This document shows, one piece after another, positions 18,483 to 29,281 of a stretch of DNA of 39,183 nt; position 1 is the first letter of the stretch, and each line of letters begins with the position of its first letter. This DNA comes from Proteobacteria bacterium CG1_02_64_396 (lineage in GTDB: Bacteria > Pseudomonadota > MNWR01 > CG1-02-64-396): the NCBI GenBank assembly GCA_001872725.1, contig MNWR01000073.1, positions 1 to 39,183 on the forward strand. Direction: 5' to 3'. The position numbers and the translations under genes are program-made. The notes beneath the pieces are model-generated. The model did no database searches. It had not been told where the DNA came from and saw only the letters and a list, made by a program, of their open reading frames with translations.

Positions 18483-19457
18483 TCACCCCTCCAGCGGATG
18501 GTGGCAGGCCGCCTCGTGCTCGGTCCCCATCCTCGTCAGCGCGGGCGCCACCAAGCAGGCCTCGCTGGCGCGGGGGCAGCGGGGCTGGAAGGGGCAGCCC
18601 CCTGCCGAGGGGGGGTCAAAGGTGGGGCGGTCGGGGATGGGGGGGTGGCGCAGTGAGGGGTGCTCGGCGGGGGTCGCCTCGCGCAGCAGGTGGGTGTAGG
18701 GGTGGCGCGGCGTGGCGAAGAGGGCGCGGGTCGGTCCCTGCTCCATCACCCTTCCGCGGTAGAGCACCACGATGCGGTCGGCGATGGTCGCCACCACCCG
18801 CAAATCGTGGGTAATGAAGACCGAGGCCATCTCCATCGACCGGGTCAACTCCCGCCACAGATTCAAAATCGAGGCCTGCACCGAGACATCCAGCGCCGAG
18901 ACCGGCTCGTCGGCCACCACCAGGTCGGGCCCCATAATCAGGGCGCGGGCGATGGCGATGCGCTGGCGCTGACCACCGCTGAACTGGTGGGGGTATCGCC
19001 CCATATCCCGGGCTTCGAGCCCCACCCGCTCCAACCACTTGGCGACCCACTTGGCCCGCCCGGCGGCGTCGAGCTGCGGCAGAAAGTTGCGCAGCGCCTC
19101 CCCCACCGCCTCTCCCACCTTGATGCGGGGGTTGAACGAGGCGAAGGGATCTTGAAACACCATGCCAACCCGGCGGCGAAAGTCGCGCAGCTCTTTTTCT
19201 TTTTTGCCGACGATCTCAACCCCGTCGAAGTGGATCGAACCGCCGTCGACCCGGCTCAAGGCGACCAGCGCCCTGCCCAAGGTCGATTTGCCGCTGCCCG
19301 ACTCCCCAACGATCCCGACCGTTTGCCCCTTCTCGACCCTCAAATCGACCCCATCCAAGGCGTCGACCCAATCGGTCGCCCCCCACATCCCCGAGCGAAC
19401 CGGGTAGCGGATTTTGAGCCCCTTGGCCTGCAACAACGGCGGGCTGGTCTGCGTCAT
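18483..19457 (-). CDS. oppF: Peptide/nickel-type ABC transporter ATP-binding protein (OppF-like)
   Basis: 324 residues. A cytosolic ATPase subunit of the Opp/Dpp class. Walker A GESGSGKST near residue 55, Q-loop VFQDPFASFNPR, signature FSGGQRQR, Walker B LVVADEPVSALD and the switch histidine in FITHDLRVV are all intact. The C-terminus has the Opp/Dpp tail HPYTHLLREA and a cysteine-rich segment CPFQPRCP that in relatives binds an iron-sulfur cluster. The ATG at 19457 overlaps the oppD stop as ATGA, so this start is preferred to one 24 bases upstream. No permease or binding-protein gene is in the window; the transporter must be completed from elsewhere. Confidence 0.93.
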   Translation of the reverse strand: MTQTSPPLLQAKGLKIRYPVRSGMWGATDWVDALDGVDLRVEKGQTVGIVGESGSGKSTLGRALVALSRVDGGSIHFDGVEIVGKKEKELRDFRRRVGMVFQDPFASFNPRIKVGEAVGEALRNFLPQLDAAGRAKWVAKWLERVGLEARDMGRYPHQFSGGQRQRIAIARALIMGPDLVVADEPVSALDVSVQASILNLWRELTRSMEMASVFITHDLRVVATIADRIVVLYRGRVMEQGPTRALFATPRHPYTHLLREATPAEHPSLRHPPIPDRPTFDPPSAGGCPFQPRCPRASEACLVAPALTRMGTEHEAACHHPLEG

Positions 19458-20455
19458 GCCGCCCCCCCCTCTTCGAGCCACGCCTCGGGCCGAATGCAGC
19501 GCACCCCCTGGCCGCCGTCGTATTCGCGCCAGGGGATGCCGTCTTCACACTCGACCACCGCATGGGGGCAACGGGGGCGGAAGCGGCAGCCGTCGGGGGC
19601 CTCGCCGGGACGGGGGACCGAGCCGGGAATCCCCTCGGCAAGGGTTCCATCGCTGCGGGGATGGCAGGCTTGCAGGGCGCGGGTGTAGGGGTGGAGCGGG
19701 CGGTCGAAGATTTGGGCGACCGGCCCCGATTCGACGATGAGACCTGCGTACATCACCGCCACCCGGTCGGCCATCTCGGCCACCACCCCGAAATCGTGGG
19801 TGATGAAGAGGGTCGCCATCGCCTCCTCGCGTTGCAGCTGACGGATCAAATCGAGGATCTGCGCCTGAATGGTGACGTCGAGGGCGGTGGTCGGCTCGTC
19901 GGCGATCAGCAGTTGGGGGCTGCAGGCGATGGCGCCGGCGATCAGCACCCGTTGGCGCATACCGCCCGAGAGCTCGCCAGGGTACTGCTGGGCCCGCTCT
20001 TCGGGGCGGTCGATGCCGACCCGGTCGAGCCAGCGCACCGCCTCTTTCATCGCCTCGCGGCGCGACAGCTTGCGGTGGACCTCCAGCACCTCGGCAACTT
20101 GGCGACCCACGGTCAGCACCGGATTGAGGGCGGTCATCGGCTCTTGAAAAACCATGCCGATCCGGTCGCCCCGGATTTTGCGCCAGGTTTTGTGCTCGGC
20201 CCCGACCATCTCGACCCCATCGAAGCGGATCGAGCCCGAGACCACGGCCCCTTCGGGAAGCAGCCCCATGGCGGCCAGCGCCGTCATCGACTTGCCGCAG
20301 CCCGATTCCCCGACCAGGCAGAGCAGCTCCCCCGGCTCAAGGCTTAAGTCGACCCCCTCGACCGGACGAACCCCACCGCTGCCCCCCAGGGCGACGGTGA
20401 GGTTGTTCAGGGCGAGGATGGGGGTGGCCGCCTGGGCCTGATCCGGCGAGGGCAC
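19454..20455 (-). CDS. oppD: Peptide/nickel-type ABC transporter ATP-binding protein (OppD-like)
   Basis: 333 residues, GTG start directly after the hisS stop codon (TAAGTG). Opp/Dpp-class ATPase: Walker A GESGCGKSM near 49, Q-loop VFQEPMTALNP, signature LSGGMRQR, Walker B LLIADEPTTALD, switch FITHDFGVV, and the C-terminal HPYTRALQACHP and CRFRPRCPHA cysteine segment. Ser to Met after the Walker lysine is common in OppD proteins. It pairs with the OppF-like gene, overlapped by four bases. Being fused to the hisS transcript is unusual, and the substrate is unknown. Confidence 0.93.
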   Translation of the reverse strand: MPSPDQAQAATPILALNNLTVALGGSGGVRPVEGVDLSLEPGELLCLVGESGCGKSMTALAAMGLLPEGAVVSGSIRFDGVEMVGAEHKTWRKIRGDRIGMVFQEPMTALNPVLTVGRQVAEVLEVHRKLSRREAMKEAVRWLDRVGIDRPEERAQQYPGELSGGMRQRVLIAGAIACSPQLLIADEPTTALDVTIQAQILDLIRQLQREEAMATLFITHDFGVVAEMADRVAVMYAGLIVESGPVAQIFDRPLHPYTRALQACHPRSDGTLAEGIPGSVPRPGEAPDGCRFRPRCPHAVVECEDGIPWREYDGGQGVRCIRPEAWLEEGGAA

Positions 20456-21772: not shown

Positions 21773-22711
21773 TTAGCGGGTCTCGCCCCAGGGGCCCGAC
21801 TTGGGGGTCTGCTGGACGGTGGGCTGGCGGGGAGCGGCGCCCTGGCCGCGCAAAGCGGCGATGCGCTCCTCCAGCGGGGGGTGGCTTAAAAAGAGGTGGC
21901 CGAAGCGGCTGCTCCGCTTGCCCGAAATTCCCATCGCCGTCATCTGGTTGGGCATGGCGGGCTCATGGGCGCGTTGCAACGCTTGCAGGGCGGCGACCAT
22001 CTTGGGCGCTCCGACCAGCCGGGCGGAACCGGCATCGGCCCGGAATTCCCGCTGACGCGAAAACCACATGACGATGATCGAGGCGAGGATGCCCAAAACG
22101 ATTTCGGCCAGGATGGTGGTCACCCAAAAGGCGGCCCCCTGTCCTCGCTCGTTTTTGAAGATCACCTTGTCGACGAAGTTGCCGATCACCCGCGAGAAGA
22201 AGATCACGAAGGTGTTCACCACCCCCTGGATCAGGGTCAGGGTGACCATGTCGCCATTGGCGATGTGGCTGATTTCGTGGGCCAACACCGCCTCGACCGC
22301 CTCTTTGTCCATCGAGCGCAGCAGCCCGGTGCTGACCGCCACCAGGGAGCTGTTGCGGCTCATGCCGGTGGCAAAGGCGTTGGGATCGGGGGCGTCGTAG
22401 ATAGCGACCTCGGGCATGCCGATCCCCGCCTGCTGCGCCTGGCGCTGCACGGTGCGCACCAGCCAGGCCTCGGCCTCGTTTTGGGGTTGTTCGATGACGA
22501 CGGCGCCGGTCATCCGCTTGGCGCTCCACTTGGAGATCGCCAGCGAAATGAAGGAGCCCCCCATGCCGAAGATGAACGAGAAGATCAGCAACGATTGCAG
22601 GTTCAAGCCGTTTTGATTCAGGTAAGGCTCGACCCCCAGCAGCTGCATGGTGATCGACAGAACGATGACGATGGCCAGGTTGGTGGCGAGAAAAAGTAGT
22701 ATGCGCTTCAT
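21773..22711 (-). CDS. htpX: Membrane zinc metalloprotease HtpX
   Basis: 312 residues. HtpX is an inner-membrane M48 protease that degrades misfolded membrane proteins, often envelope-stress induced. Two N-terminal membrane helices ([36 protein letters not shown]), the zinc motif HEISH at about 144-148, and two more helices ([32 protein letters not shown]) are followed by the third zinc ligand region [14 protein letters not shown]. The C-terminus has the usual [19 protein letters not shown] lies upstream of the ATG. About 196 bases separate it from the divergent ATP-grasp gene, room for two promoters. Confidence 0.96.
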
Positions 22712-22907
22712 GTCGATGGTGCATCCTCTTGAGTGATGGGACCGAGCCGAACGATCCGGCGCGGGAAGTCTAACCGATACTGCCGAAGATCAATAAGGCG
22801 GCGCGGCCATCGTCAAAGGCTCCTCTGTGTTTTTTGCTGCATGGGCAGGCGAGGCGACGCGGAATGTCCCCTTCCGATTCCAACAACATCTACCGGTCCA
22901 AGCTCCG

Positions 22908-24260
22908 ATGAATCCGAGCGCCATCGACATCGTCAGCGACCACCGCCGCATGCCCCCCCTACATCGCGGCGGCGCCCTGTATTTGGGCAACCTGTACGCC
23001 ATCTTCTATGGCGACGGCTCCCGCACCCGCGAGTTGATGGGGCGGGTTTCGGGGTTCTTCGGCTACGGGGGGCGGTTGCTACCCATCGTCGATCTGCTCT
23101 ACCCCCAGGGGCCCAACCTACTGTTGCTGGAGCAGATTCCCGACCCCCCTTTGCTCGATCTCCTGGGGGGGCACCTGGCCCTAAGCCTGCCCCGCTTCGA
23201 GGTGATCGAACCGGAGCAGGCCTCCACTTTCGAGCAGGGGCTGGCCTCCCGCCCCGATCTTCTCCCCCAGGCGGGCATCCAGCCCGGTTTCTGGATCGAC
23301 GGTTTTGTCGCCGACGCCGAGTTGGAGCGGTTGGGGCACCACTTCGGGCTGCGTCCGGCGACCACCTGCATCGCCAGCCGCCACGCCAACGACAAAAGCA
23401 GACTGCGACTGTTCCTTGAATCCCAGGGGCTGCCCCGCTTCGATGGGGGGTTGGTGCACAACCTTGAGGATGTCGCCCGCATGGGGATCCAACTGCGGGG
23501 GATGGGATACCGGCGGGCGGCGCTGCGGGCCGCCATCGGCGCCTCGGGGTTCGGCTTTTGGCCGGTCGACCTGGAGGGGGGCGATCCACTGCCCGACCCG
23601 CCCCATCTGTTCGAACACGGCCCCGCCCTGCTTGAAGGGTGGCTGGCACCGGGGGTCGACGGCATCGATGAGGTCACCTCCCCCAGCGTGCAGTTCTTCA
23701 TCGCCCAGGACGATTCGGTCTGCCTGTACGACCTGACCGGGCAGATCCTGCGCGAACGGGCCATCCACGAAGGAAACATCGCCCCTCCGGTCGATCTGCC
23801 CACCTCCGAGGTCGCCGCCGCACTGGTCGAATACAGCCGCCCCCTGGTCGCTTGGCTCCACAGCCAGGGGTACCGCGGCCCCGGCAGTATCGATTTTCTG
23901 GTGGTGCAGCGGGGGTCGAACTGGGAGGTCAAAATTTGCGAAATCAACGCCCGGGTCACCGGCGCCACCTACCCCTCGTTGCTGGCCCGCCGTCTGCTGC
24001 CGGGGGGGGGATGGATGCTGCGCAATGTGCTGCTGGCTCCTGGCCAAAACGCCGCCGCCCTGATTGCAGCGCTGCACGACAGCGGCTTGATGTTCAAACC
24101 GGGGGGGGAGCGAGGGGTGATCCCCGAAAACCTGATTCACGGCGATGGGGGCAAGCTCATCAAGGGGCAGATGCTCTTCATGGCCCCGACCTCCCACGAA
24201 TGCCTTCAGCTGGCCGATGAACTGGCTCGTCGTTTACACCACAGGCTGCGTTATGAATGA
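22908..24260 (+). CDS. Pre-ATP-grasp / ATP-grasp ligase-like protein
   Basis: 450 residues from the ATG at 22908; a GTG at 22827 would add 27 dissimilar residues and I cannot exclude it. The N-terminal third (GNLYAIFYGDGSRTRELMGRV... broken here, with FFGYGGRLLPIVD) resembles a pre-ATP-grasp domain. The C-terminal half has ATP-grasp features: an acidic/metal segment SIDFLVVQRGSNWEVKICE and EINARVTGATYPSLLAR near residue 345, the typical ExNxR metal-binding end. Such proteins join a carboxylate to an amine via acyl phosphate; relatives include amino-acid or peptide ligases of the PGM1 type. It overlaps an M20 peptidase gene by eight bases, so translation is coupled and the two probably make and trim, or salvage, the same amide product. 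No other biosynthetic genes are adjacent. Substrate unknown. Confidence 0.72.
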   Translation: MNPSAIDIVSDHRRMPPLHRGGALYLGNLYAIFYGDGSRTRELMGRVSGFFGYGGRLLPIVDLLYPQGPNLLLLEQIPDPPLLDLLGGHLALSLPRFEVIEPEQASTFEQGLASRPDLLPQAGIQPGFWIDGFVADAELERLGHHFGLRPATTCIASRHANDKSRLRLFLESQGLPRFDGGLVHNLEDVARMGIQLRGMGYRRAALRAAIGASGFGFWPVDLEGGDPLPDPPHLFEHGPALLEGWLAPGVDGIDEVTSPSVQFFIAQDDSVCLYDLTGQILRERAIHEGNIAPPVDLPTSEVAAALVEYSRPLVAWLHSQGYRGPGSIDFLVVQRGSNWEVKICEINARVTGATYPSLLARRLLPGGGWMLRNVLLAPGQNAAALIAALHDSGLMFKPGGERGVIPENLIHGDGGKLIKGQMLFMAPTSHECLQLADELARRLHHRLRYE

Positions 24261-25350
24261 AAGCGACTCCCGTATTTTAGAGTTGGCCAAAGCCCTGATT
24301 CTGATCCCCTCCATCGAGGGAAACCCCCAGGGGCTGGCCCATGCGGTGCGGTTGGTGCGCAGCCATATCGAAGAGGTTGCCGGGGTCGAGATCGACGACT
24401 ACATGGTCGAAGGCAGACCCTGTTTCGTGGCCCACCCTGCGGGCAACCGAATGGTGGCGGTGATGCTGGTGGGGCATGTCGATGTGGTCGAGGGGCGGGA
24501 GGAGCAGTTCTTCCCGGTGGTGCGCGACGGTCGGCTCTACGGGCGCGGCGCGGGCGACATGAAGGGGCAGGTGGCGATTTTGGCCGAGCTGTTTCGCCTG
24601 CTGCTGAGCGAGCGCCCCTACCCCCTGGGGCTGATGATCACCAGCGACGAGGAGTCGGGCGGGGAGCACGGGGTACAGTGGCTGCTCGAAAAACAGGGGG
24701 TGCGCTGCGAGGTCGCTTTGATTCCCGATTCGGGGCGGATCGACGAGATCGTGGTGCGCGAAAAAGGGGTCATCAACGGCAAACTCACCACCCACGGGGT
24801 GCGGGGCCACAGCTCCCGACCCTGGCAGGGGGACAACGCCATCCACCGCCTGGTGCAGATCATCCACCGCCTCACCACACGCTTCGAGGCGCTGGCGCAG
24901 GGGGCCGAGCAACACTGGCACCCGACCCTGTCGGTCAACGTCATCGCCACCGCCAACCATGCCTTCAACCGAATCCCAGGCCACGCCGAGGCAACCGTCG
25001 ACATCCGCCATCCGGCGCAGTGGCATGCCAGTTCGTTGCTTGAACTGATCGAGGAGGAGGCGGCCAAGGAGGGGGGGAGCTTCAATGTCGAGATCGCCGC
25101 CGAACCGCTCGAAACCGAGCCCGATACCCGGTTTCAGGCCATTGCCCAGGAGGTGATCGGCCGCGAGGTGCGCTTTGTTTCGGAACACGGCGGCTCCGAC
25201 GGGCGGTTCTTCACCCGGCAGGGGATCCCGGTGGTCATGGCCCGCCCCGAACTGGGGGGGCTGCACGGGGACAACGAATGGATCGATGTGCATTCGATGA
25301 TGCAGTTTCGGCAGATTGTGGAGCGGTATGTGCGGCAGGTGCTGGGGTAG
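24253..25350 (+). CDS. M20-family metallopeptidase/deacylase (ArgE/DapE-like)
   Basis: 365 residues. M20 enzymes hydrolyse N-acyl amino acids or small peptides with two zinc ions, in the cytosol. Visible: first metal histidine in LVGHVDVVEG near residue 75; bridging aspartate in GRGAGDMKGQ near 103; catalytic/metal glutamates in SDEESGGEHG near 131; the lid domain beginning VRGHSSRPWQGDNA; and the final histidine in LGGLHGDNEW near 338. The ATG at 24253 overlaps the ATP-grasp stop by eight bases. A DapE or ArgE identity is not claimed: the operon context with a ligase-like ATP-grasp enzyme is not that of arginine or lysine synthesis. Substrate unknown. Confidence 0.88.
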   Translation: MNESDSRILELAKALILIPSIEGNPQGLAHAVRLVRSHIEEVAGVEIDDYMVEGRPCFVAHPAGNRMVAVMLVGHVDVVEGREEQFFPVVRDGRLYGRGAGDMKGQVAILAELFRLLLSERPYPLGLMITSDEESGGEHGVQWLLEKQGVRCEVALIPDSGRIDEIVVREKGVINGKLTTHGVRGHSSRPWQGDNAIHRLVQIIHRLTTRFEALAQGAEQHWHPTLSVNVIATANHAFNRIPGHAEATVDIRHPAQWHASSLLELIEEEAAKEGGSFNVEIAAEPLETEPDTRFQAIAQEVIGREVRFVSEHGGSDGRFFTRQGIPVVMARPELGGLHGDNEWIDVHSMMQFRQIVERYVRQVLG

Positions 25351-25372
25351 GTTTTGACGGGGTCGTCCGCAA

Positions 25373-25414
25373 GGCTGTCCACGGTTTCAGTGGTGGACTC
25401 AACCGTGGGCAGCC
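25373..25414. other. Hairpin between convergent M20 and aroC genes
   Basis: GGCTGTCCACGGTT pairs with AACCGTGGGCAGCC (one G-T pair) around a 14-base loop that itself holds small repeats. There is no T run, so a factor-independent terminator is not proven. Its place between two convergent stop codons makes a transcript-end role likely. Confidence 0.5.
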
Positions 25415-25427
25415 CAGTGACGGAAGA

Positions 25428-26531
25428 CTATCCCCCCCCCATCCCCGCCAAGGTCGCCGCCAACGATTGCGGGTCGCGCCCGGTCTGGGCGCGGTGGCGC
25501 AACCAGTGATCCATCAACACCAGCGCCACCATCGCCTCGGCGATGGGGACGGCGCGGATCCCCACGCAGGGATCGTGGCGGCCGTGGGTGACAACCTCGA
25601 TGGGATGGCCTTGCTTGTCGATGGAGCGGCGGGGGATGGCAATCGAGGAGGTCGGTTTAATGGCCAGACGGGCAAGCAAATCCTGCCCCGAGGAAATCCC
25701 CCCGAGCACCCCTCCGGCATGGTTACCGACGAATCCTTCGGGGGTGATTTCATCGCCGTGTTGAGAACCGCGCTGCCCGACCACGCCAAACCCATCCCCG
25801 ATCTCGACCCCCTTGACTGCGTTGATCCCCATCAGCGCCTTGGCGATGTCGGCATCGAGTCGGTCGAATACCGGCTCCCCCAACCCCACCGGCATTCCGG
25901 TCGCCAGCACCTGCAACTCGGCGCCGATAGAATCACCCGCATTGCGGGCCGCTTCGACCTCGGCGGTCATGGCGGCCACGGCGTTTTCGTCGGGGCAAAA
26001 CAGAGGGTTTTGGCCGATCCGATTCAGGTCGACTTGGGCGATGCGGGCGGCGCCGATGGCGCTGACCCAGGCGTGAATCGCCACCCCATACTGACCGAGG
26101 AATTTCTTGGCAATCGCCCCGGCAGCGACCCGCATGGCGGTCTCCCGAGCCGAGGAGCGCCCGCCGCCGCGATGGTCGCGGATCCCATATTTGTGCCAGT
26201 ACCCCCAATCGGCATGGCCGGGCCGGAAGGTCTCACTGAGGTTGCCGTAATCCTTGCTGCGCTGGTCGGTATTGCGGATGAGTAAACCTATGGGGGTGCC
26301 AGTGGTCCTGCCCTCGAACACCCCAGAGAGGATCTCGACTTGATCACCCTCTTGGCGCTGGGTGGTGAGTTTGGATTGGCCAGGACGGCGGCGGTCGAGG
26401 TCGCCTTGCAGGTCGGCCTCGCTGAGCGGCAGGCCGGGGGGGCACCCCTCGACGATGGCCAGCAGGCCGGCGCCGTGGCTTTCGCCCGCCGTACTTACCC
26501 GGAATATCGATCCAAACGTATCGCCAGCCAT
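25428..26531 (-). CDS. aroC: Chorismate synthase
   Basis: 367 residues, normal length. It removes phosphate from EPSP to give chorismate, the last common step to aromatic amino acids and folate, using reduced FMN. Signatures: [18 protein letters not shown] at residue 16-33, [57 protein letters not shown], and near the C-terminus [11 protein letters not shown] and [10 protein letters not shown]. GEs-H and RSSARET are the family motifs. The start ATG opens directly on the conserved N-terminus. It is transcribed alone, divergent from hsp20 with 104 bases between starts, and convergent with the M20 gene. Confidence 0.98.
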
Positions 26532-27153: not shown

Positions 27154-28254
27154 TTACTTCCAGCCTAGAGTCGCCTGCACCATGTAACGGGTATCGACCT
27201 GCTGCCCGGCATAGCCGCCCAGCTCGGTCTGATAGTAGGTCGCCGCCACGGTCATGATCCAGAAACGAACCTCGGCGCCCGCAGTGGGGTAACCACCGTT
27301 CAAACCGCCGCGCAGCAGCAGATGACGCCCCATCAAGCCCAGCTCGGCACCGAGGTGGAGCCGCTTGGCAATCGAGGTGTCGCCATAGCCGTTGGTGATG
27401 TCTTCGTAATCGGCGGCCAGTACCAGATCGGCAGCCCACGATTCGGGGTGGATGGAGACCCCGGCATTGACGGTCATAGGGATCTTGCGGGTTTGATCGT
27501 CAAAGAGGTTGGTGATGTTCATGGCAGAAACGGCAACCTTGGGATTCAGCGCCGTGAGGAAGGGCAGCTTGTAGGCAAGCCCCACATCGAAAGCGCTGTC
27601 GGTGACGGTCTCACTCGTGGTTCCGGGGCTCCAGTCGTAGTTGGGATCCGACAACTGCGCCATGGTCACCGCTTCGTGCAACCACTGCCGTTGCAAGAAC
27701 TTACCCGCCACACCCAGCCGAAGGCCGTCGGTTAGCTCAAACGAGGCGCCCACAATGGCACCGGCATCGAGACTGGAATTGATCTCCACGGCGCCCGCCG
27801 AAGAGAAGGGATTGTGGACCATGGCGTCGACTTGGGCTTTGCCAATGGCGGCCACGGCGAAGTTATCCCAGGCAACGGTGGGGGTGACAGCGGCACGCAG
27901 ATGCAGCAATTCCCCTTGATGGGCGATCACCACCTTGGTGGTTTCGGTAGTCCTCAGGTTGGGATCGGGATTGTTCGCCGCATTGTTCAGGTCATTGGCG
28001 AACAATTTGAGGTTGTCGTTCACCTCGACCAAGGGGTTGATCAATTCGAGCTGCATCGGCTGCTCGGCCAGGTTGGCGGGGTTGGTCCAGAGGGCATCGG
28101 ATTCCTCCCCCACCGCCACGCCGGTCCCACCCATGGCCGAAACCCGGGGGGAGTCGTAGAGGTGGTAGTACTCGTAATTGACGGGGGCGGCCTGGACAGA
28201 GGCGGCGGCCAACACCAAGAGGGCGGTAGTGCTCGCGGTCAGAATACGTTTCAT
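27154..28254 (-). CDS. Outer-membrane beta-barrel protein (TraF/PorV-like), unknown substrate
   Basis: 366 residues. A Sec signal peptide (LTASTTALLVLAAASVQA, cleaved after AQA-type VQA) is followed by SPRVSAMGGTGVAVGEESDALWTNPANLAE, given here in part: the AMGGxGVA...NPAnL pattern typical of FadL-, PorV- and TraF-like barrels. Many alternating strands follow (LRLGVAGKFLQRQWL; FDVGLAYKLPF; KRLHLGAELGLMGRHLLLRGG; RYMVQATLGWK with aromatic C-terminal region). The second ATG, at 28254, is chosen because GGGGG stands eight bases before it. It lies 12 bases after a lipoprotein gene on the same strand, so the two are probably one envelope unit. Substrate or partner cannot be read from sequence. Confidence 0.78.
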   Translation of the reverse strand: MKRILTASTTALLVLAAASVQAAPVNYEYYHLYDSPRVSAMGGTGVAVGEESDALWTNPANLAEQPMQLELINPLVEVNDNLKLFANDLNNAANNPDPNLRTTETTKVVIAHQGELLHLRAAVTPTVAWDNFAVAAIGKAQVDAMVHNPFSSAGAVEINSSLDAGAIVGASFELTDGLRLGVAGKFLQRQWLHEAVTMAQLSDPNYDWSPGTTSETVTDSAFDVGLAYKLPFLTALNPKVAVSAMNITNLFDDQTRKIPMTVNAGVSIHPESWAADLVLAADYEDITNGYGDTSIAKRLHLGAELGLMGRHLLLRGGLNGGYPTAGAEVRFWIMTVAATYYQTELGGYAGQQVDTRYMVQATLGWK

Positions 28255-28266
28255 GGTCATTCCCCC

Positions 28267-29130
28267 TTATTGACCCATCATGCCGGCAAAACCGCCCTGG
28301 GTGTTGGCATAGGCGTTGACGTTGGAGGCGGTCAGGTAAGCACTGATGTTGGCCTGGGTAACCCCGGCCGAGCTGCCACAGGGAATCGTTTGACCTGGAT
28401 TGGCCGGATCGGCGATGGGAGTGCAGGGGGTCGCCGCGATGTTGGCGCGCAGGGTGGCCATATCGGGCACCGTCGGATCGATCGACTGGGCCAGCGAGTC
28501 AACCATGGAGGTACTGCCCGCCAAAGCGCCGGCGCCGTTGATCATCCCGGCGATGGCCTGCGAAGCCAGCACCGTCGCCGAAACGGAATTACCCCCCACA
28601 GAAATGTTGGGATTGGCATTGGCAGTAAAAGCGTTATTGATATCGGCGGGCGTCGGTTGCGAAGAACCGGTCACCTGAGCCACCACCGAGCCGAGCAACA
28701 CCATCGAGGCGAAGGCCGCCTGGGCTTGCAGTTGGGTGTTGTTGGGATCGGCTTGCAGCGCCTGATTCAGTTGGGTGACCGCATTGCTCAGATTCTGGGC
28801 GTCGGCAGGACTCGCACTGAAGCTCAAACCGCTCAACGCCGTCGAATTGGCAGTTCCGGAAGGACCGGCGGTCACAAGATCAAGCATGGTCTGGGTGTCG
28901 ATCCCCGCCGCCCCCATCGCCGCCGCCGCATAATCGAGGGGATTCACCGAGCCGAGAGGGGCGTTGAGGATGGCGTCGTAGTTGCCCTGATCGAGGTTCA
29001 GGCGATTCTGATATTCCCTGGACTGATCGCTATCTTTGGCTCCGGAATCGAGCCCTTGAATGCTGTTGCATCCGGCCAGCAGGAGCAGCGACGCCGCCGT
29101 CGCCCCCCCAAAAATTTGCCAGTGTTTCAT
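28267..29130 (-). CDS. Ala/Asn/Ser-rich lipoprotein, unknown function
   Basis: 287 residues. Lipoprotein signal with LLLLAGCNS, cysteine at residue 21; Asn-Ser after it favours the outer membrane over retention. The rest is unusually rich in Ala, Asn, Ser and Thr and poor in charge beyond residue 60. A helical stretch at about 115-150 (NLSNAVTQLNQALQADPNN) is TPR-like. A loop with two cysteines (CTPIADPANPGQTIPC, 16 residues) near 240 may form a disulfide. It ends in AYANTQGGFAGMMGQ. GAGGAG stands before the ATG. I do not recognise the family. The barrel-protein gene follows after 12 bases, suggesting a cell-surface pair. Confidence 0.7.
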   Translation of the reverse strand: MKHWQIFGGATAASLLLLAGCNSIQGLDSGAKDSDQSREYQNRLNLDQGNYDAILNAPLGSVNPLDYAAAAMGAAGIDTQTMLDLVTAGPSGTANSTALSGLSFSASPADAQNLSNAVTQLNQALQADPNNTQLQAQAAFASMVLLGSVVAQVTGSSQPTPADINNAFTANANPNISVGGNSVSATVLASQAIAGMINGAGALAGSTSMVDSLAQSIDPTVPDMATLRANIAATPCTPIADPANPGQTIPCGSSAGVTQANISAYLTASNVNAYANTQGGFAGMMGQ

Positions 29131-29281
29131 CGTCGCTTCTCCTCTTTGTGTGGTTGACGCAAAAGGGCTGCGTCGCATGAATCGTTGGGAAAATCGTCAA
29201 CTGCCCAAAGCAAGCTTAGGCAGGGTCTGCTCCGCCTACCACCTGGAGCCTCAAAGTCGTGCAGTCAATCACACGCCAACC

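Follow-up and report, generated by a model that had tools for sequence, protein, structure and literature searches.

What might an ATP-grasp ligase and an M20 peptidase do together when their genes overlap? The pair considered here lies in the window, by which we mean the whole 39,183-nucleotide stretch of DNA analysed, and a sequence-only reading had described the two genes as sharing eight bases and sitting between htpX and aroC. The open reading frames agree with this description. The ligase frame runs from an ATG at 22908 to a TGA at 24258-24260, the M20 frame runs from an ATG at 24253 to a TAG at 25348-25350, and the shared bases are ATGAATGA. The upstream gene htpX (21773-22711, minus strand; NCBIfam HtpX 450 bits, cut-off 245) is divergent and the downstream gene aroC (25428-26531, minus strand; NCBIfam 486 bits, cut-off 321) is convergent, so the ligase and M20 genes form an isolated two-gene unit (Table 1). 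Their GC3 values are 0.82 and 0.84, and since GC3 and codon usage resemble those of the neighbouring genes, neither stands out from the genome's ordinary coding sequences. Such native codon usage is compatible with old residence, in line with the earlier suggestion that the pair may be ancestral in the lineage, and equally with amelioration.

Table 1. Features of the ligase and M20 gene pair, in window coordinates.
Feature	Position	Strand	Basis
ATP-grasp peptide-ligase-like gene, PGM1/BesA superfamily	22908..24260	+	ORF, 450 aa
M20 di-zinc metallopeptidase gene, PDB 2rb7 clade	24253..25350	+	ORF, 365 aa
Eight-base overlap of the ligase and M20 genes, ATGAATGA	24253..24260	+	sequence
Ligase Lys163, invariant ATP-site lysine (NDKS motif)	23394..23396	+	alignment with nine PGM1/BesA homologues
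Ligase Arg207, replacing the glycine-loop Lys kept in nine PGM1/BesA homologues	23526..23528	+	alignment
Ligase GASGFG (211-216), glycine-rich ATP-grasp loop	23538..23555	+	G214 and G216 conserved in two homologue alignments
Ligase Glu243, probable adenine-hinge Glu (LLEGWL)	23634..23636	+	motif reading; ambiguous alignment
Ligase E345-I-N347-A-R349, Mg-ligand motif	23940..23954	+	E, N and R invariant with nine homologues
M20 His75, metal ligand	24475..24477	+	invariant in M20 alignment
M20 Asp102, bridging metal ligand	24556..24558	+	M20 alignment
M20 Glu133 (general base) and Glu134 (metal ligand)	24649..24654	+	invariant in M20 alignment
M20 Asp159, second-zinc ligand	24727..24729	+	M20 alignment
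M20 His338, metal ligand	25264..25266	+	M20 alignment

Around the pair, an Rfam search of 22600-25500 found no RNA elements, the 5′ region of the ligase gene folded no better than shuffled sequences (z -0.28), and a search for a sigma-70-like promoter found none. A 15-codon ORF, MSPSDSNNIYRSKLR, is present at 22864-22911 on the plus strand; it is preceded by GAGG, and its TGA overlaps the ligase start (ATGA). It may encode a leader peptide coupled to the ligase gene, or may have arisen by chance. Elsewhere in the window, genes for dppF-like and dppD-like peptide-ABC-transporter ATPases adjoin hisS (18483-20455, minus strand), and two adjacent ORFs (27154-29178, minus strand), encoding 368 and 303 aa, went unmatched in Pfam at E 1e-4 and in NCBIfam at E 1e-10.

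Profile and single-sequence comparisons place the ligase near the peptide ligases PGM1 and BesA. Its best single-sequence match in the PDB by phmmer is PGM1 (3wvq, E 1.7e-6), and hhalign aligns residues 46-447 with nine homologues at 98.9% probability (E 2.8e-17). A profile of homologues built without the window ligase gives it 75 bits, against 6.1 bits for the best of 2000 shuffles. When the ligase is included in the profile, the top matches are 8ynd (an ATP-grasp peptide ligase), PGM1 and BesA, with biotin carboxylases next, and a tblastn search of plasmids with the ligase led to Streptomyces "peptide ligase PGM1-related" proteins. Identity to the PGM1/BesA homologues is about 18-25%. The ligase matches no Pfam or NCBIfam family at their cut-offs; PF18105 scores 11.8 bits, below its gathering score of 22.5, and the pre-ATP-grasp domain PF18604 has no match above cut-off in this genome. 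Some PGM1/BesA homologues themselves miss either PF18604 or PF18105, so neither domain is required of every member. Judged by these comparisons, the ligase belongs, as a divergent member, to the ATP-grasp peptide-ligase superfamily of PGM1 and BesA. The earlier assignment to the ATP-grasp proteins is upheld by the phmmer match to 3wvq, the profile comparison and the shuffle control, and can be sharpened to a putative PGM1/BesA-type peptide ligase. The pre-ATP-grasp domain proposed at the same time stands in part: residues 46-150 align in the hhalign profile comparison, but Pfam does not call PF18604 on the protein.

Most ATP-site positions appear to be kept in the ligase. K163, E345, N347 and R349 are retained, and the exception is the loop lysine, which is Arg207. 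We note that MAFFT places Glu243 elsewhere than the motif reading does, and the alignment of the hinge region is uncertain. An AlphaFold2 model computed from the single sequence failed, with a pLDDT of 33.4. The sequence-only reading had named the absence of a credible ATP site in a structural model as grounds for giving up its proposal; at the sequence level the site looks credible apart from the Lys-to-Arg207 change.

The assignment of the second gene to the M20 metallopeptidases is unambiguous. PF01546 (97.4 bits, E 1.4e-27) and PF07687 (68.2 bits, E 6.9e-19) are both above cut-off, and the predicted metal site is complete, with H75, D102, E134, D159 and H338 plus the base E133. The best PDB match is 2rb7 (E 3.2e-36), and by sequence the protein groups with 2rb7 and not with the DapE and ArgE of its own genome. 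At the position of Asp159, a Glu is found in this DapE, this ArgE and nearly all aligned homologues. According to the rule of Lindner et al., as quoted in PMC6271292, M20 enzymes with proven aminopeptidase or dipeptidase activity have Asp here, and aminoacylases/deacylases and carboxypeptidases have Glu. As a family-level rule, this would make the window M20 a protein of the dipeptidase/aminopeptidase type. NCBIfam scores for DapE (148.8 against a cut-off of 284, and 121.3 against 361.8), ArgE (122.3 against 297.7) and the DapE-ArgE subfamily (146.9 against 217.6) all fall short. We reject a DapE or ArgE identity because both enzymes are encoded elsewhere in the genome; each is above its own family cut-off and has Glu at the Asp159 position, so neither the lysine nor the arginine pathway takes its enzyme from the window M20.

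The distribution of the pair was assessed in 399 genomes of the phylum; in the collection used, the window's genome is the sole member of its class. No orthologue of the ligase or of the M20 protein was found in these genomes. The single ligase sequence gave weak partial matches only, and the ligase-homologue profile found distant full-length homologues in three genomes (G034, G199 and G086) together with many partial ATP-grasp matches. M20 searches in the phylum gave identities of at most 38% among the matches listed, and with a 2rb7-clade profile no phylum protein came near the window M20's own score. Searches of genome contigs and viral contigs found no related loci. Neither a second copy of the ligase-M20 pair nor a 2rb7-clade M20 gene beside other ligase homologues was found in the phylum genomes and plasmid loci examined. 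In the literature searched, which lay mostly outside subscription journals, no description of the pairing was found.

Two other loci are worth recording. In Nonomuraea gerenzanensis (L094:4216-7326), a BesA-like ligase gene divergently adjoins an M20 gene (PF01546 E 9.6e-38); we do not count it as a recurrence because its M20 reaches only 25 bits with the M20 profile built for this analysis. A phylum genome encodes a BesA-like ligase (L046:1066-2631, plus strand; NF042917 E 2e-41), and the ORFs nearby, judged by the first residues of their translations, look like an aminotransferase and an ornithine-cyclodeaminase-like enzyme.

Our leading reading, which we hold tentatively and at somewhat less than even confidence, is that the ligase and the M20 enzyme are a self-contained two-gene operon that forms and cleaves small amides of a single kind. 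In ATP-grasp ligases an acyl phosphate is formed and then attacked by the amine (PMC8359417); the ATP-grasp protein of the pair would likewise turn a carboxylate into an acyl phosphate and couple it to an amine. The most likely product would be two amino acids joined, or an amino acid joined to a small acid, as with PGM1, KtmD and BesA. Di-zinc M20 enzymes hydrolyse amides. The co-translated di-zinc M20 protein, with its dipeptidase-type Asp159, would hydrolyse an amide of the class of the ligase product, and could thereby free an amino acid that carries a protecting group or modification, or break down a dipeptide kept in store. A precedent for such append-then-release logic may be seen in the ammosamide pathway, in which Arg is appended and the M20 dipeptidase Amm19 then frees a modified Trp (PMC12715798).

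The sequence establishes the gene structure, the two family assignments and the catalytic residues other than the loop lysine (Arg207); from these we infer the enzyme activities, the substrates and the action of both enzymes on the same bond. It is plausible that a ligase joining two amino acids would be paired with a dipeptidase splitting such a bond, and one class of small amide made and cleaved by the pair would be the most economical reading. Only the gene overlap speaks for a shared substrate, and overlap of genes is a sign of co-translation rather than of a common substrate. The earlier proposal that the pair could make and hydrolyse an amide or dipeptide-like metabolite is compatible with both active sites. 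In favour of a one-amide operon are the overlap within an isolated unit, the PGM1/BesA superfamily membership, the ATP and Mg motifs, the complete M20 metal site, Asp159 and the ammosamide precedent. Counting against it are the lack of recurrence of the pair, the lack of a 2rb7-clade M20 gene beside the other ligase homologues examined, and the Arg at the loop lysine. A bolder version, which we consider somewhat unlikely, is that the pair forms a minimal ligase-dipeptidase cycle and lies in no biosynthetic cluster: a ligase of a new PGM1/BesA-type branch would make a dipeptide-like metabolite and the co-translated M20 partner would hydrolyse it, so that an enzyme family known from natural-product pathways would serve primary metabolism. 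Where we met a PGM1/BesA-type ligase whose role is assigned, it worked in a natural-product pathway. A ligase outside a cluster and tied by overlap to a dipeptidase would, if the reading is true, point to a small-amide metabolite of ordinary cell physiology, and the two-gene unit is small enough for direct expression and testing.

The two enzymes may instead catalyse sequential steps, with the M20 protein splitting a dipeptide, imported or made in the cell, to free an amino acid that the ligase then builds into a different peptide, or with the M20 protein trimming a larger ligase product. We regard this as rather doubtful. Biosynthetic loci do house PGM1/BesA relatives (PMC11943689 among the sources), and the peptide-import ATPase genes dppD and dppF are 2.5-4.5 kb from the pair; however, they lie on the opposite strand, past hisS and htpX, and the unit contains no further biosynthetic gene. 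It is less probable still that the ATP-grasp protein has ceased to act as a ligase or runs another ATP-dependent reaction, beside an M20 protein that is an ordinary scavenging dipeptidase. Arg207, the 18-25% identity to any homologue and the ambiguous hinge alignment would fit this, as would the Gln in the aligned loop stretch of the related PRK06524 family, for which we know of no tested reaction. Yet the protein retains K163, its glycine loop and E345/N347/R349, and Mg ligands are usually lost in inactive proteins.

That two unrelated enzymes are merely packed between htpX and aroC is improbable in our judgement: the pair does not recur in the 399 phylum genomes and plasmid loci examined, as accidental adjacency would predict, but the eight-base translational overlap in a unit with no other genes argues for selection for co-expression. 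In the LysW pathway, an ATP-grasp ligase carries out attachment and an M20 hydrolase carries out release, and a LysX/LysK-like carrier-protein protection system would follow the same logic here. Such a system is very improbable. No protein of the genome reaches the LysW cut-off of 53.2 bits (the best has 16.1), the LysW-lysine hydrolase model, with a cut-off of 363 bits, gives the M20 protein 73.7, the ligase profile finds PGM1 and BesA and not LysX or RimK, and the genome has DapE and ArgE.

The pair can be set against known systems. PGM1, the pheganomycin peptide ligase, joins an acid to the N-terminus of a peptide (PMC8359417, PMC8939145), and its domain order by profile is the same as that of the window ligase. 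The window ligase differs from it in its low identity, in PGM1_C below the Pfam cut-off (E 0.18), in the uncalled PF18604 and in Arg207, and it has an M20 partner and no biosynthetic cluster. BesA (PDB 8yi6, NF042917), the L-propargylglycine--L-glutamate ligase, belongs to the same superfamily, and the N-terminal half of the window ligase is like the BesA-like protein of L046. However, the BesA equivalog NF042917 (cut-off 750 bits) does not match the window ligase even at E values as high as 1, and the ligase is 18% identical to the Streptantibioticus protein; it comes with no bes genes, and the bes locus itself shows no M20 gene. The PRK06524 ATP-grasp family ("biotin carboxylase") matches residues 301-355 weakly (E 0.009; 14.2 bits against a cut-off of 684), and its members have Gln in the loop-lysine stretch. 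On the M20 side, DapE and ArgE share the fold and metal site but have Glu in place of Asp at the second-zinc ligand. The carnosine-type dipeptidases CN2, PepV and PepD have Asp there, like the window M20 (PMC6271292 for the dipeptidases), and are absent from its PDB sequence matches. The closest relative of known structure is 2rb7, listed only as Peptidase, M20/M25/M40 family, which is 32% identical to the window M20 and has in common with it Asp159 and the EKG, RPWxG and HWHxT motifs.
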